A stretch of 54,186 nt of DNA. Source: Candidatus Ruminococcus intestinipullorum (GTDB taxonomy: Bacteria; Bacillota; Clostridia; Lachnospirales; Lachnospiraceae). Position 1 is the stretch's first letter. Each line of letters begins with the position of its first letter. The position numbers and the translations under genes were made by a program. The notes under the pieces are model-generated. The model was not told the origin of the DNA. It worked only from the letters and a program-made list of their open reading frames with translations, and made no database searches. Shown piece after piece: positions 1,523 through 7,289 of this stretch. The stretch is taken from NCBI GenBank assembly GCA_018883985.1, contig JAHLFA010000006.1, positions 1 to 54,186 of the forward strand, read 5' to 3'.

Positions 1523-2896
1523 TTATTTTTCAGACATCTGCTCTAAAAAGGCTTTGTAGCCACGATATGCTTCGTACACATCAGCCTTGCTTGTAACTTC
1601 CCAAGGTGCATGCATGCACAAAACAGCAACTCCTCCATCGATTACTTCCATTCCATACTGGGCTAGAATATAAGCGATAGTTCCTCCGCCACCTATATCT
1701 ATTTTTCCCATTTCAGTTAATTGGAATTTTACTTCATTTTCATCAAACACTCTTCTTAATTGAGCAATATACTCTGCATTTGCATCATTGGAACCACTTT
1801 TACCTCTTGCTCCAGTATGCTTATTTAAAACCATTCCATAGCCAAAGAATGGATTTGATTTTTTATCGTATACATCACTATACATTGGATCATATGCTGC
1901 ACCTACATCTGAAGAAATCATCTTAGAATTTGCTAAAACTCTACGTAATTTCATTTCTGTAAAGTTCCCCATCTTTTCTAACATTTCTGCTACAGCATTT
2001 TCAAAAAATCGGGAATTCATTCCTGTGGCACCCACACTTCCTATTTCCTCTTTATCTACTAAGATACAGCAAGAAGTTCTTTTTATATTTTCTGCATCAA
2101 ACATGGCTGCCAAGGATGTATATGCACATACACGGTCATCCTGACCATATGCCATAATCATACTTCTATCAAATCCACAATCTCTTGCTCTTCCTGATGG
2201 TACGACTTCTAACTCTGCTGACATAAAATCATCTTTTTCTATTTGGTATGTATATGCCAAAAGATTCATTATATTTTCAGCGACTGCATCTTTTTCCTCT
2301 CCAACTAATGGACGGCTGCCTACTAAAATATCTAAGGATTCCCCTTCTATAACGGTGGAAGCTTTTTTCTCCATTTGCTTTGAGGAAAGATGAACCAATA
2401 AATCTGTAATTACAAATACTGGATCCCCCTCATTTTCCCCAATAGAAATTTGTACTTTGCTTCCATCTTTACGAACTACTACACCGTGAATCGCCAATGG
2501 AATGGTCACCCATTGATATTTCTTTATTCCTCCGTAATAGTGTGTATCAAGATATGCAAATCCACTTTCTTCATATAATGGATTTTGCTTTAAATCCAAA
2601 CGTGGAGAATCTATATGAGCACCTAAGATGTTCATACCTTTTTCTATCTCTTCCTCTCCTATATGGAATAGTACTATACTTTTTCCCATCCAATCTTGAT
2701 ATAACTTATCCCCTGCTTTTACTTGTGTGACATTGTTGATATTTTTATATCCAGCTAACTCCGCTTGACGAATAATTTCAGTAACACATTCTCTCTCTGT
2801 TTTTCCAGCATCCAAAAAAGCTTTGTAGTTTTCTGTAAGGTGAGATAACTCATCAAGTTGCTTTTGGCTATAAATCTGCCATAAAGATTTTTTCAT
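1523..2896 (-). CDS. M18 family aminopeptidase (paralogue 2)
   Basis: This is a 457-residue cytosolic M18 aminopeptidase, collinear with its neighbour at 36-1382 and sharing its motifs: AHIDSPR, AYGQDDRVC, DKEEIGSVGATGMNS, SSDVGAAYDP, GKSGSNDANAEY and MHAPWEV. I chose ATG 2896 because GGAGG lies just upstream; starting further upstream would translate that ribosome-binding site. The messenger leader is unusual: the hairpin of the RAYT element (2910-2943) ends three bases from the Shine-Dalgarno site. Any native promoter must lie beyond the inserted element, or the gene is now expressed from promoters in the element or from glyQS read-through. Confidence 0.93.
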   Translation of the reverse strand: MKKSLWQIYSQKQLDELSHLTENYKAFLDAGKTERECVTEIIRQAELAGYKNINNVTQVKAGDKLYQDWMGKSIVLFHIGEEEIEKGMNILGAHIDSPRLDLKQNPLYEESGFAYLDTHYYGGIKKYQWVTIPLAIHGVVVRKDGSKVQISIGENEGDPVFVITDLLVHLSSKQMEKKASTVIEGESLDILVGSRPLVGEEKDAVAENIMNLLAYTYQIEKDDFMSAELEVVPSGRARDCGFDRSMIMAYGQDDRVCAYTSLAAMFDAENIKRTSCCILVDKEEIGSVGATGMNSRFFENAVAEMLEKMGNFTEMKLRRVLANSKMISSDVGAAYDPMYSDVYDKKSNPFFGYGMVLNKHTGARGKSGSNDANAEYIAQLRRVFDENEVKFQLTEMGKIDIGGGGTIAYILAQYGMEVIDGGVAVLCMHAPWEVTSKADVYEAYRGYKAFLEQMSEK

Positions 2897-2909
2897 AACT
2901 TCCTCCTTC

Positions 2910-2943
2910 GGGGACGTAGTCAATTCAATTTGACTACGTCCCC
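2910..2943. repeat. REP-like palindrome A (outer end of the RAYT element)
   Basis: This is a perfect hairpin: 14-bp arms starting GGGGACGTAGT and ending ACTACGTCCCC around a 6-nt loop (2924-2929). It is the outer left end of the transposase element and has the same core as palindromes at 3829-3860 and 7246-7289. It abuts the ribosome-binding site of the second M18 gene, so it would form a stem just upstream of that gene's start on the messenger. Confidence 0.9.
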
Positions 2944-2954
2944 GATTTCAATCA

Positions 2955-2986
2955 AGTATGTCCCAAACTGAATTTTGCCCTGTCCC
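2955..2986. repeat. Left inner inverted repeat of the RAYT element
   Basis: This 32-bp sequence begins AGTATGTCCC and ends GCCCTGTCCC. It is the inverted counterpart of 3785-3816 with three mismatches. It contains two GTCCC boxes (2960-2964 and 2982-2986), 22 bp apart and 22 bp from the box in the outer hairpin. Confidence 0.88.
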
Positions 2987-2996
2987 TTTTTTGTAA

Positions 2997-3764
2997 TTAT
3001 TTCTCCATTATACTGTTTTTTACATAAAAATACAATTCTTCAGTTCTTTTTTTGGATATTTTTAATGATTTTATTAAATCTGATTTATATTGCATCCTTA
3101 ATTCTCGGTCTTCTATTACTTCTTTTACATTCTCTAAATTTTCAACATGTGCTTTTTGATAAATCATAGAAATAGCAATTTCCTCCTGCTGCCTCTTTAT
3201 TTCATCTGGAATATCAATAAAAACCTGCTTAGAAGTTTTTTCATGATATATCAAATATTCTTCAAAATCTGCAAACTCATTTTTATATATTTTAATTGCA
3301 GATTTATGCAATAACTTTATATCTTCATGCTCATACTCCTTTAAACTACTATATTTATAATTTAAAGGCTTCTTTACAATATTGGCCTTCACAGGATTTA
3401 GATGTATATATCTCATACAATTCCAAAAATATCGTGCTGATTCTACACATTCACTAGAAAACCTATTTTGAAACACATGTCCATTTCTCTGATGTTTATA
3501 ATTATAATATTCTGCGAATTCGGCTAGAACTACTGCCATATATGATGATAAGATTTTTAATTCTGAACGAATTAAAAGATGAATATGATTTGACATTATA
3601 CAATATGAAAAAATTTCAACAGGATACTTTTTTAAATGTTTGCCCATTAATTTCATAACCTGTCGCTTTTCGCAATTTTGATTAAATATACGTTCCTTAT
3701 TGATACCTTTTGCAACAACATGATACATCCCTGTGCTACTTTCACAACGTCTTTGCCTAGGCAT
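2997..3764 (-). CDS. REP-associated tyrosine transposase (RAYT, IS200-like Y1)
   Basis: This 255-residue single-strand transposase belongs to the Y1/HUH superfamily. The N-terminus RRCESSTGMYHVVAKG is typical of RAYT proteins. The metal-binding HUH motif is SNHIHLLI near residue 60, and YIHLNPVKANIV near residue 120 is the hallmark block that I take to contain the nucleophilic tyrosine. Residues from about 185 to 255 form a Lys/Glu-rich helical tail ending in a possible helix-turn-helix (IKSLKISKKRTEELYFYV), perhaps for DNA binding. GAGGTGAAG precedes the ATG. The gene is intact and fills the space between the inverted repeats. The family is clear; activity is not shown. Confidence 0.93.
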   Translation of the reverse strand: MPRQRRCESSTGMYHVVAKGINKERIFNQNCEKRQVMKLMGKHLKKYPVEIFSYCIMSNHIHLLIRSELKILSSYMAVVLAEFAEYYNYKHQRNGHVFQNRFSSECVESARYFWNCMRYIHLNPVKANIVKKPLNYKYSSLKEYEHEDIKLLHKSAIKIYKNEFADFEEYLIYHEKTSKQVFIDIPDEIKRQQEEIAISMIYQKAHVENLENVKEVIEDRELRMQYKSDLIKSLKISKKRTEELYFYVKNSIMEK

Positions 3765-3784
3765 ATCTTCACCTCACTTAATTT

Positions 3785-3816
3785 GGGACAGGGCAAAACT
3801 CAATTAGGGACATACT
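3785..3816. repeat. Right inner inverted repeat of the RAYT element
   Basis: This 32-bp sequence begins GGGACAGGGC and ends GGGACATACT, the inverted counterpart of 2955-2986. The GGGAC boxes at 3785 and 3807 are 22 bp apart, and the next one, at 3829, is the arm of hairpin B. Confidence 0.88.
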
Positions 3817-3828
3817 CGTCATTAATAC

Positions 3829-3860
3829 GGGACGTAGTCAAATTCAATTCACTACGTCCC
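3829..3860. repeat. REP-like palindrome B (outer end of the RAYT element)
   Basis: A 10-bp arm, GGGACGTAGT, pairs with ACTACGTCCC (3851-3860) around a 12-nt loop that pairs partially. It forms the right outer end of the element. It lies 6 bp past the glyQS stop codon, so on the glyQS messenger it makes a 3' hairpin with no U tract. Confidence 0.88.
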
Positions 3861-3866
3861 CAATAT

Positions 3867-5258
3867 TTAAAATTCAAATTTTCTCTCAAAATATGCTTTT
3901 AAATCTTCTATCTTCACTCTTTCCTGCTCCATTGTATCTCTATCACGAACAGTCACAGCTCCATCAGTCTCCGATTCAAAATCATATGTTACACAGAATG
4001 GTGTACCAATCTCATCCTGACGACGATAACGTTTCCCTATATTTCCACGATCATCAAACTCACAATTATAAGTCTTACTCAACTGTGCAAACACCTTCTC
4101 TGCACCCTCATTCAACTTCTTAGATAACGGAAGAACCCCAATCTTAACAGGTGCTAATGCTGGATGAAAACGAAGAACTGTACGAGTATCTCCTCCTTCT
4201 AATTCTTCTTCATCATATGCACTACAAAGGAATGCAAGAACCATACGATCCGCCCCTAAAGATGGTTCAATTACATAAGGGATATACTTTTCCTTTTTCT
4301 CATCATCAAAATATGTTAAATCTTGCTTTGATACTTCCTGATGTTGAGTTAAATCATAATCGGTTCTATCGGCAATTCCCCAAAGTTCTCCCCAACCAAA
4401 AGGAAATAAAAATTCTACATCTGTAGTCGCTTTGCTATAGAAACTTAATTCTTCTGGACTATGGTCACGATAACGTACTTCGTCTTCTTTTAATCCCAAA
4501 GAACTTAACCAATTCAAACAAAAATTCTTCCAATAATTAAACCATTCTAAGTCTGTCCCTGGCTCACAGAAAAATTCAAGTTCCATCTGCTCAAACTCTC
4601 TTGTACGGAAAGTAAAGTTCCCTGGTGTAATTTCATTACGGAAAGACTTTCCAATTTGGGCTATACCAAATGGAATCTTCTTTCTGGATGTTCTCTGTAC
4701 ATTTTTAAAGTTCACAAAAATACCTTGTGCTGTTTCTGGTCTCAAATAAACAACGTTTTTCGCATCTTCTGTAACACCTTGAAATGTTTTAAACATCAAA
4801 TTAAACTCTCTAATATCTGTAAAGTTGTGCTTTCCACAAGAAGGACAATTAATCTGATGCTCTTCAATATAAGCAGTCATTTCCTCTTTAGACCATGCAT
4901 CTACGCTACCCTCTATTTCAATTCCATGCTCCTGCATGTAATCTTCGATAAGCTTATCTGCTCTAAATCTTTCTTTACACTCCTTACAATCCATCAAAGG
5001 ATCGCTAAATCCACCTAAATGACCAGATGCAATCCATGTTTGAGGATTCATTAAAATAGCACAATCCACACCTACATTATATGGACTTTCCTGCACAAAT
5101 TTTTTCCACCATGCTTTTTTTACATTATTTTTAAGCTCTACACCAAGATTACCATAATCCCATGTATTTGCAAGACCTCCATAAATCTCAGAACCTGGAT
5201 ACACAAAACCTCTCGATTTTGCCAGAGCCACGATTTTATCCATTGTCTTTTCTACCAT
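3867..5258 (-). CDS. glyQS: Glycine--tRNA ligase (single-chain, alpha2 type)
   Basis: This class II synthetase charges tRNA-Gly. It is the single-chain dimeric form common in Firmicutes and actinobacteria rather than the GlyQ/GlyS pair. Visible features include the N-terminal [14 protein letters not shown] block, a CxxC pair (CKECKERF) and a second one (CPSCGKHNF), motif 2 ([26 protein letters not shown]), [12 protein letters not shown] and motif 3 near [10 protein letters not shown]. The length of 463 residues is normal. ATG 5258 was chosen because GAGGA lies 7 nt upstream; a GTG five codons earlier would put that site inside the gene. It has its own promoter, and no T-box leader fits in the 75-bp gap. 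Confidence 0.96.
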
Positions 5259-5296
5259 AATCCTGTTCCTCACATTCTTTTTATCAACTTCTAAAT

Positions 5297-7229: not shown

Positions 7230-7289
7230 GGGACACACTGAACTTCAATTGGGGACGTAGTAAAATCAATTTGACTACGTCCCCAATTG
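7230..7289. repeat. Solo RAYT-element end (REP-like palindrome C plus box)
   Basis: This is a transposase-less copy of the element end. A GGGACACACT box at 7230 is followed exactly 22 bp later by GGGACGTAGT (7252), the arm of a hairpin whose 16-bp arms are 7246-7261 and 7274-7289 (each arm carries CAATTGGGG or its complement). The 22-bp spacing matches both ends of the complete element at 2910-3861 while the spacer differs in sequence. The third, innermost box is absent here. The hairpin ends one base from the stop codon of the M16 peptidase gene. Confidence 0.85.

Follow-up and report, generated by a model that had tools for sequence, protein, structure and literature searches.

Phased arrays of GGGAC boxes at the ends of a TIRYT-type transposase unit in Candidatus Ruminococcus intestinipullorum and its relatives

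The closest described relatives of the unit reported here are the TIRYT genes and TIRtrons (Di Nocera, 2013; PMC3733652) which, as far as the accessible text of the two papers goes, coincide for the most part with TnpAREP subclass 2.1 (Quentin, 2018; PMC6006769). The accessible part of the latter work also cites group 1 of the repetitive extragenic palindromic (REP)-associated tyrosine transposases (RAYT) of Bertels 2017 as mapping to this subclass. TIRYT genes have long terminal inverted repeats, many with GGGGWSAS and some partly self-complementary, and the repeats are scattered singly, in pairs or in groups (PMC3733652). Proteins of subclass 2.1 carry a C-terminal helix-turn-helix which, in the portion of the source available, is considered perhaps to play no role in target recognition, or to recognize a new target (PMC6006769). 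We analyzed a unit of this kind in a stretch of 54,186 nucleotides from Candidatus Ruminococcus intestinipullorum (GenBank assembly GCA_018883985.1, contig JAHLFA010000006.1, positions 1 to 54,186, forward strand; hereafter the window). The initial annotation of the window had described a RAYT gene whose ends carry three GGGAC boxes phased at 22 bp and had compared them only with classical REPs; in this way the nearest class was missed, since TIRYT genes with long terminal inverted repeats had already been described (PMC3733652). The class is already known: it is that of TIRYT, or TnpAREP subclass 2.1. The locus shares with TIRYT units a HUH Y1 protein with an extra C-terminal domain, long flanking terminal inverted repeats (here with arms of 77 nt) and scattered related repeats. 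It differs in its phased multi-box arrays, in the rule by which the step is 22 or 21 bp according to the protein clade, and in the order of the boxes, features that are not mentioned in the accessible text of PMC3733652 and PMC6006769. The words "iteron" and "direct repeat" are absent from the text of the former, and "direct repeat" from that of the latter. Furthermore, the largely open-access literature searched held no publication linking tyrosine transposases with iterons, or Mediterraneibacter with the term repetitive extragenic palindromic.

The unit and its dispersed copy in the window consist of the following features:
2997..3764, minus strand: REP-associated tyrosine (HUH, Y1) transposase gene, 255 amino acids, HUH at H60/H62, catalytic tyrosine likely Y119 (YIHLNP)
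2910..2986, minus strand: left end, downstream of the gene, with three outward GGGAC boxes (GTCCC at 2982, 2960 and 2938 on the plus strand), step 22
3785..3861, plus strand: right end, upstream of the gene, with GGGAC boxes at 3785, 3807 and 3829, step 22
2911..2942, no strand assigned: left tip hairpin, GGGACGTAGT...ACTACGTCCC, single-stranded DNA (ssDNA) fold of -18.9 kcal/mol, z -9.55
3829..3860, no strand assigned: right tip hairpin, ssDNA fold of -9.9 kcal/mol, z -5.41
7230..7283, plus strand: gene-less dispersed copy, one inner box plus tip hairpin at a step of 22, between the M16 peptidase gene and era

The RAYT call on the gene product agrees with profile NF047646, which scores 82.4 bits against a cut-off of 80; the IS200/IS605 family profile NF033573, with a cut-off of 55, gives the transposase only 18.7 bits. 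In 37 aligned sequences H60, H62, Y119 and P124 are invariant and N123 is kept in at least 90%, so that both the HUH and the Y---NP motifs are present. The gene occurs once in its own genome, whose assembly is 83.5% complete. Re-reading the sequence returned all six GGGAC/GTCCC start positions and the exact 22-bp steps as initially annotated. The outermost box was also said to pair with its own complement and, indeed, the outer 32 nt of both ends fold strongly as ssDNA; the CAAA..TCAATT tract ascribed to the inner and outer units is present as written at the right end. The two inner units tested (3785-3806 and 3807-3828) show no ssDNA folding. Taken together, 2910-2986 and 3785-3861 form a single inverted repeat with arms of 77 nt that are 83% complementary, and the unit therefore spans 2910-3861. 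The window contains five occurrences of GGGAC-N17-GGGAC, whereas 100 shuffles gave a mean of 0.00; the fifth occurrence is the copy at 7230-7283, which the initial annotation did not contain. No T-tract terminator was found in 2850-3950, and promoter-like sites around the unit are in no excess over chance (3 vs 6.0 expected). As regards the GGGGWSAS motif, the left tip reads GGGGACGT, the inner box at 3785 TGGGACAG, and GGGGACAG occurs in another dispersed copy, at C27:2583-2590.

The tip hairpins carry GTAG within the paired stem GGGACGTAGT, unlike the classical REPs of groups 2 and 3, in which an unpaired GTAG lies 5′ of the palindrome. This position of GTAG, the phased boxes and the added C-terminal domain set the locus apart from the REP/RAYT units of E. 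coli and Pseudomonas (REPtrons, BIMEs, REPINs). With IS200/IS605 elements it shares the HUH Y1 catalytic domain and hairpins near the ends, but here the ends are inverted and multi-box, there is one copy in its own genome, and NF033573 stays below its cut-off.

The phased box ends observed initially proved both correct and general, as confirmed by the flanks of related genes. We read 28 loci of one protein clade, namely 24 of the same genus (the locus of the window gene included), L123 and L127 from other genera, and L157 and L158 from records assigned to Lachnospiraceae with no genus stated, counting exact GGGAC boxes no more than 160 nt from the gene. At the resulting 55 ends, 104 of the 105 steps between adjacent exact boxes measure 22, and the single exception is a 44 that arose because one box was lost. 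The boxes are thus direct repeats at a constant helical step, as in an iteron array, and the objection that spacing might vary applies to this one step. Among the 23 orthologues (54-74% identity) the 44 belongs to L077; L073 has a gap that comes from a mutated tip box, and two loci show a single end only. The number of boxes per end ranges from 1 to 5, tip included, apart from one end with none that is cut 2 nt past the gene. The spacer is far less constant than the step: in the inner units positions 11-22 agree by 61% on average (the search itself dictates positions 1-5), and yet the step remains at 22, so the phase is kept exactly through spacer change. A constant step with a varying spacer and box number is what the initial annotation had proposed to look for. 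Its A/T tract is partly kept, positions 12, 13, 16, 18, 20 and 21 of the inner units exceeding 1 bit.

The box types are ordered along the ends, from an innermost box that is mostly GGGACAGGGY to the tip GGGACGTAG. In tallies that cover the commonest types listed, GGGACAGGGC or its T variant, GGGACAGGGT, takes the first inner position in 44 of 52, and later inner boxes fit GGGACAYASY in 37 of 48. The tip class comprises 51 units that start with GGGACGTA, the letters by which the class was chosen, and the next base is G in 50 of them. Finally, the upstream array begins 19-28 nt ahead of the start codon in the 24 loci of the genus.

The step follows the protein phylogeny. We built a tree of 130 proteins after removal of duplicates (L152-L156, L161), one cut sequence (L086) and two short ones (L204, L197). 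One clade of 33 rows (100/99) takes in 27 of the 28 rows whose outward steps are exactly 22, and all five rows with a 21 step lie in its six-row sister clade (98/74, the second measure being under the usual mark). The six members of the 22 clade that lack exact 22 steps have mostly altered boxes (GGTAC, TGCAC and CTGAC types, judged by eye). A lag test that uses no box letters nevertheless gives 22 as their top lag (z 3.5 pooled, and singly in 4 of 6), and 21 as the top lag of the sister clade (z 2.9 pooled, and singly in 4 of 6); neither 21 nor 22 emerged in nine chosen outgroup loci, from which L148 was excluded since it carries 22. Thus, in most cases the period outlives the box letters, and it differs by protein lineage. 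The rule has exceptions: L148 shows 22 outside the clade, L130 one 22 step inside the 21 clade, and L159 neither period. In L138, a relative adjoining glyS, the boxes point inward at 21 bp on both flanks, with four downstream and three upstream plus one 10 bp off; L148 and L138 are probably separate cases. GGGAC/GTCCC positions listed for 139 loci show, for many distant relatives, either one lone inward GGGAC close to the gene or units of other lengths. One distant relative, L144, has three near-identical palindromes of at least 60 bp, 0.9-1.0 kb apart, two of which flank the gene.

Genome-wide counts in the 21-step clade give a mixed picture. In G205, 24 of 59 box pairs step 21 and 6 step 22, which favors the view that the resident protein sets the step. 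G226 has 25 pairs at 21 and 23 at 22, of 72, and the sole gene found there is of the 21 clade; both kinds of step can therefore coexist in one genome. In G166 and G214 the genome-wide pair totals are no higher than in the reversed control.

The same arrangement recurs throughout the genome from which the window comes. The tip hairpin pattern has 29 copies there and none in the reversed control; these places comprise 13 bare tips (two cut by contig ends), nine tips with one inner box, six gene-less inverted pairs and the gene unit. The last two kinds have the layout of BIMEs and REPINs, i.e., inverted repeats around a short linker. A search for GGGAC-N10-26-GGGAC returned 41 pairs, of which 33 step exactly 22, every one of these at a tip-hairpin place, and the remaining eight are elsewhere with other spacings. 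The spacing is thus constant in the other genomic copies, as had been anticipated; the possibility raised at the same time, that inner boxes are absent from most copies, holds for 13 of the 29 places (two of them cut), hence for some, yet not for most. A run of seven boxes at 22 bp occurs in G016 (L286, 929-1065), opposite a three-box array across a gene that, judged by eye, is subtilase-like.

The gene context of 30 hairpins in this genome was scored with open frames of at least 110 amino acids as gene calls: the flanking genes are convergent for nine, tandem for 18 and divergent for none, and three hairpins have one neighbor cut off. The 3′ end of a frame is 4-10 nt from the hairpin in 14 of the 30, and in L033, L044 and L055 the TAG inside the hairpin (GGGACGTAG) is the stop of the adjoining open reading frame. 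At 11 bare tips (L032, L034, L043-L045, L047, L049, L050, L052, L056 and L057) the flanking bases are complementary over 5-10 bp; their sequence varies by copy, so that the palindrome extends past its conserved part. As far as the accessible text of PMC3733652 goes, hairpin positions beside genes agree with the REP placement described there.

Individual sites differ between relatives. A bare tip (L045 1501-1533; C45:6988-7020 in its own genome) fills an approximately 49-nt gap between a convergent ABC-transporter gene and a gene that we take to be rsmI, from its sequence and a methylase match. The tip is missing in all 28 relatives with sequence at this point (29 fetched of 54 matching, one cut). 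The ABC-transporter neighbor is kept in 26 of them, and 14 of these 26 have a terminator-like hairpin in an exact-stem scan run with no shuffled control; it is suggested, not shown, that one hairpin took the terminator position of another. Visual inspection of the gap between the M16 gene and era (window 7230-7283; L318-L347) in 29 relatives gave a GGGACGTA hairpin in 14 of them, one having a damaged arm, a GGGGTC or related one in seven, the GGGACGGAG type in one, and none of these types in seven, of which two show no M16 gene in view. With at least three hairpin families, or none, among species of the genus, this gap is a shared landing site.

The neighbors of the transposase gene are:
1523..2896, minus strand: directly downstream, conserved; taken from its sequence to be an M18 aminopeptidase gene
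3867..5273, minus strand: directly upstream, conserved; presumably glyS (glycyl-tRNA synthetase), likewise from its sequence

The window contains tandem M18 aminopeptidase genes, at 36-1382 and 1523-2896, with an identity of 57%. In 22 of 24 close-orthologue loci glyS lies upstream and M18 downstream of the transposase gene, and the other two, at a contig edge, show glyS only. Coordinates place M18 directly after the gene in nine further gene-positive genomes, glyS together with the gene is also found in G062 and G068, and one or both neighbors are kept in several other genera. A second close gene copy exists in G014 and G076, that of G014 (L093) also following glyS. Given these conserved neighbors, the gene is mostly inherited in place, and what varies in place are the gene-less hairpins and arrays. 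The unit does not look mobile as a whole within the genus, where synteny shows the same neighbors; for TnpAREP genes in general, the accessible text of PMC8266576 likewise reports no evidence of mobility. Among 15 gene-less loci, 12 have glyS and M18 adjacent (65-398 nt apart) with no box pairs, two gave no glyS match and one is cut. A precise empty site was sought, but its junction could not be placed, the gene-less sequences being too diverged; for this reason the unit boundaries are those of the inverted repeat alone.

Hairpin numbers track the gene. Of 58 genomes of the genus, 32 have a close gene (at least 52% identity), six a distant relative only (38-40%) and 20 none. Records named Mediterraneibacter contain proteins identical to those of four same-genus genomes, and Lachnoclostridium sp. 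An169 has one identical to that of a fifth, so the window is probably from Mediterraneibacter (Lachnospiraceae). All 32 gene-positive genomes contain 6-31 tip hairpins (median 15); of the 26 negative ones, 13 have none and 22 have three or fewer (Mann-Whitney p 1.5e-8, uncorrected for relatedness). Genomes with the gene hold a median of 26.5 box pairs at 22 (range 2-62) and those without it 5 (0-62), the reversed control giving 7.5 and 8. The initial annotation had named hairpins in genomes lacking the transposase as a point that would speak against it; numbers follow the gene across the 58 genomes, but more than three hairpins do occur in 4 of the 26 gene-less ones. In two of these four, G005 and G080, the close M18 gene and era are missing from the assembly; in G019 a contig start truncates the M18 gene. 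All three assemblies therefore probably lack the transposase locus.

The extra domain of the protein was considered separately. Modeled alone, the C-terminal domain gives four helices with a pLDDT of 92.5. The fold match to 4er8, the solved E. coli TnpAREP-hairpin structure, covers model residues 1-187, the C-terminal domain being mostly beyond it. Helix-turn-helix matches were obtained in the C-terminal region of all five outgroup relatives scanned, each below the Pfam cut-offs, and the domain of the window protein has no Pfam match to Bac_DnaA_C, HTH_23 or HTH_28. Overall, DNA binding by the C-terminal domain is weakly indicated.

TnsB and MuA are DDE enzymes that act on double-stranded DNA, and plasmid iterons are direct repeats about two helical turns apart that are read by an initiator protein. 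The unit described here differs from plasmid iterons in having no known replication origin and in its protein, a Y1 HUH enzyme. With the Tn7-like and Mu ends it has in common several 22-bp transposase sites of one type (PMC9371665); however, the ShCAST sites are, in the accessible part of that source, unevenly and nonsymmetrically spaced, and the analogy extends to end layout only. The patterns reported above, read from sequence, suggest that the protein reads double-stranded DNA besides the hairpins known for its family. On balance we lean towards a TIRYT unit with ordered multi-site end arrays, in which the C-terminal domain reads the duplex boxes and the HUH core acts on the tip hairpin. 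The C-terminal helical domain would bind boxes that lie two helical turns from each other on the same face of the duplex; as two turns of B-DNA take up roughly 21 or 22 bp, neighboring subunits would share that face. An end would thereby be occupied by a row of several subunits that place the HUH core at the tip hairpin; the hairpin may then be cut and joined as ssDNA and spread as small gene-less copies. The HUH core would work on the single-stranded tip as in its relatives, judging from the fold match and from the chemistry of E. coli TnpAREP as given in the accessible text of PMC8266576. The length of the step may be set by contact between neighboring subunits, which would account for the difference between the two sister clades, at 22 and 21. 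A broader version, which we put forward tentatively and would not bet on, sees a HUH family with an added Tn7/Mu-like layer: subunits would sit on phased duplex boxes through a diverged C-terminal domain, the step would evolve with the protein, catalysis would take place on the single-stranded tip, and a gene fixed in place would seed hairpins that take terminator positions.

Several observations weigh against the proposed reading. A fold search with this domain returned no significant match and a profile comparison gave 24.6%; DNA-bound TnsB and DeoR are among its weak fold hits, and unrelated proteins reach similar scores. G074 has excess hairpins although glyS and M18 are adjacent without the gene, and is a real orphan. 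Two more genomes fit poorly: G067, with the gene present and only two pairs at 22, and G021, with no gene, 28 pairs and three hairpins (M18 and era also missing).

Other explanations of the arrays have to be weighed against recognition of the ends through duplex boxes. A doubtful, still serious alternative is that the boxes are an operator, bound upstream by the transposase or another regulator for expression control, with the copies acting as regulatory or decoy sites and no end recognition. The distance of 19-28 nt between the upstream array and the start codon in the 24 loci of the genus is as expected of an operator and, with promoter-like sites not above chance (3 vs 6.0 expected), control could be unusual; but an operator alone would not need an array of the same order, inverted, downstream of the gene and in gene-less copies, and autoregulation is itself compatible with end recognition. 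The hairpin alone might instead be what matters, as a host-favored transcription terminator, the inner boxes being passengers and the protein a hairpin housekeeping enzyme. The placement of the 30 hairpins (9 convergent, 18 tandem, 0 divergent), the 13 bare tips among 29 places, and the rsmI site, with a tip that the 28 relatives with sequence there lack and terminator-like hairpins in 14 of 26 same-neighbor relatives (no shuffled control), all speak for such a role. We nevertheless consider this unlikely, because it leaves unexplained the phased boxes without hairpin-forming power at the gene ends of 23 orthologues, and a T-tract terminator was not found at the ends in the window.

It is also quite improbable that the arrays are what remains after slippage duplicated a 22-bp unit in tandem, with a phase that is not under selection. 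Slippage would account for box numbers that vary from 1 to 5 per gene end and reach seven in the run of G016 (L286), and the A/T tract common to inner units beyond GGGAC is what shared descent would leave. On the other hand, 104 of 105 steps are at 22 though positions 11-22 agree by only 61%, the box type depends on position, and the period, which the letter-free test recovers from the pool and from 4 of 6 single loci, is not the same in the two protein clades. Least credible, and in our view very improbable, is a purely single-stranded recognition in which the GGGAC boxes are alternative partners of the terminal GTCCC, each box enlarging the loop by 22 nt. Five bases are the same in every box and complementary to the tip arm, a sameness that stems partly from the box search; past GGGAC, however, the inner boxes depart from the tip (AGGGY or AYASY vs GTAGT), which makes the longer hairpins weak, and pairing does not require an exact step of 22 or 21.

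For TnpAREP subclass 2.1, whose C-terminal domain was considered perhaps not to recognize the flanking repeats (PMC6006769), phased arrays with a clade-specific step make it directly testable which domain sets the step and whether the protein reads duplex DNA. If the proposed reading of the phased boxes is true, these units would join the single-strand chemistry of HUH enzymes with the multi-site end complexes of DDE transposons.
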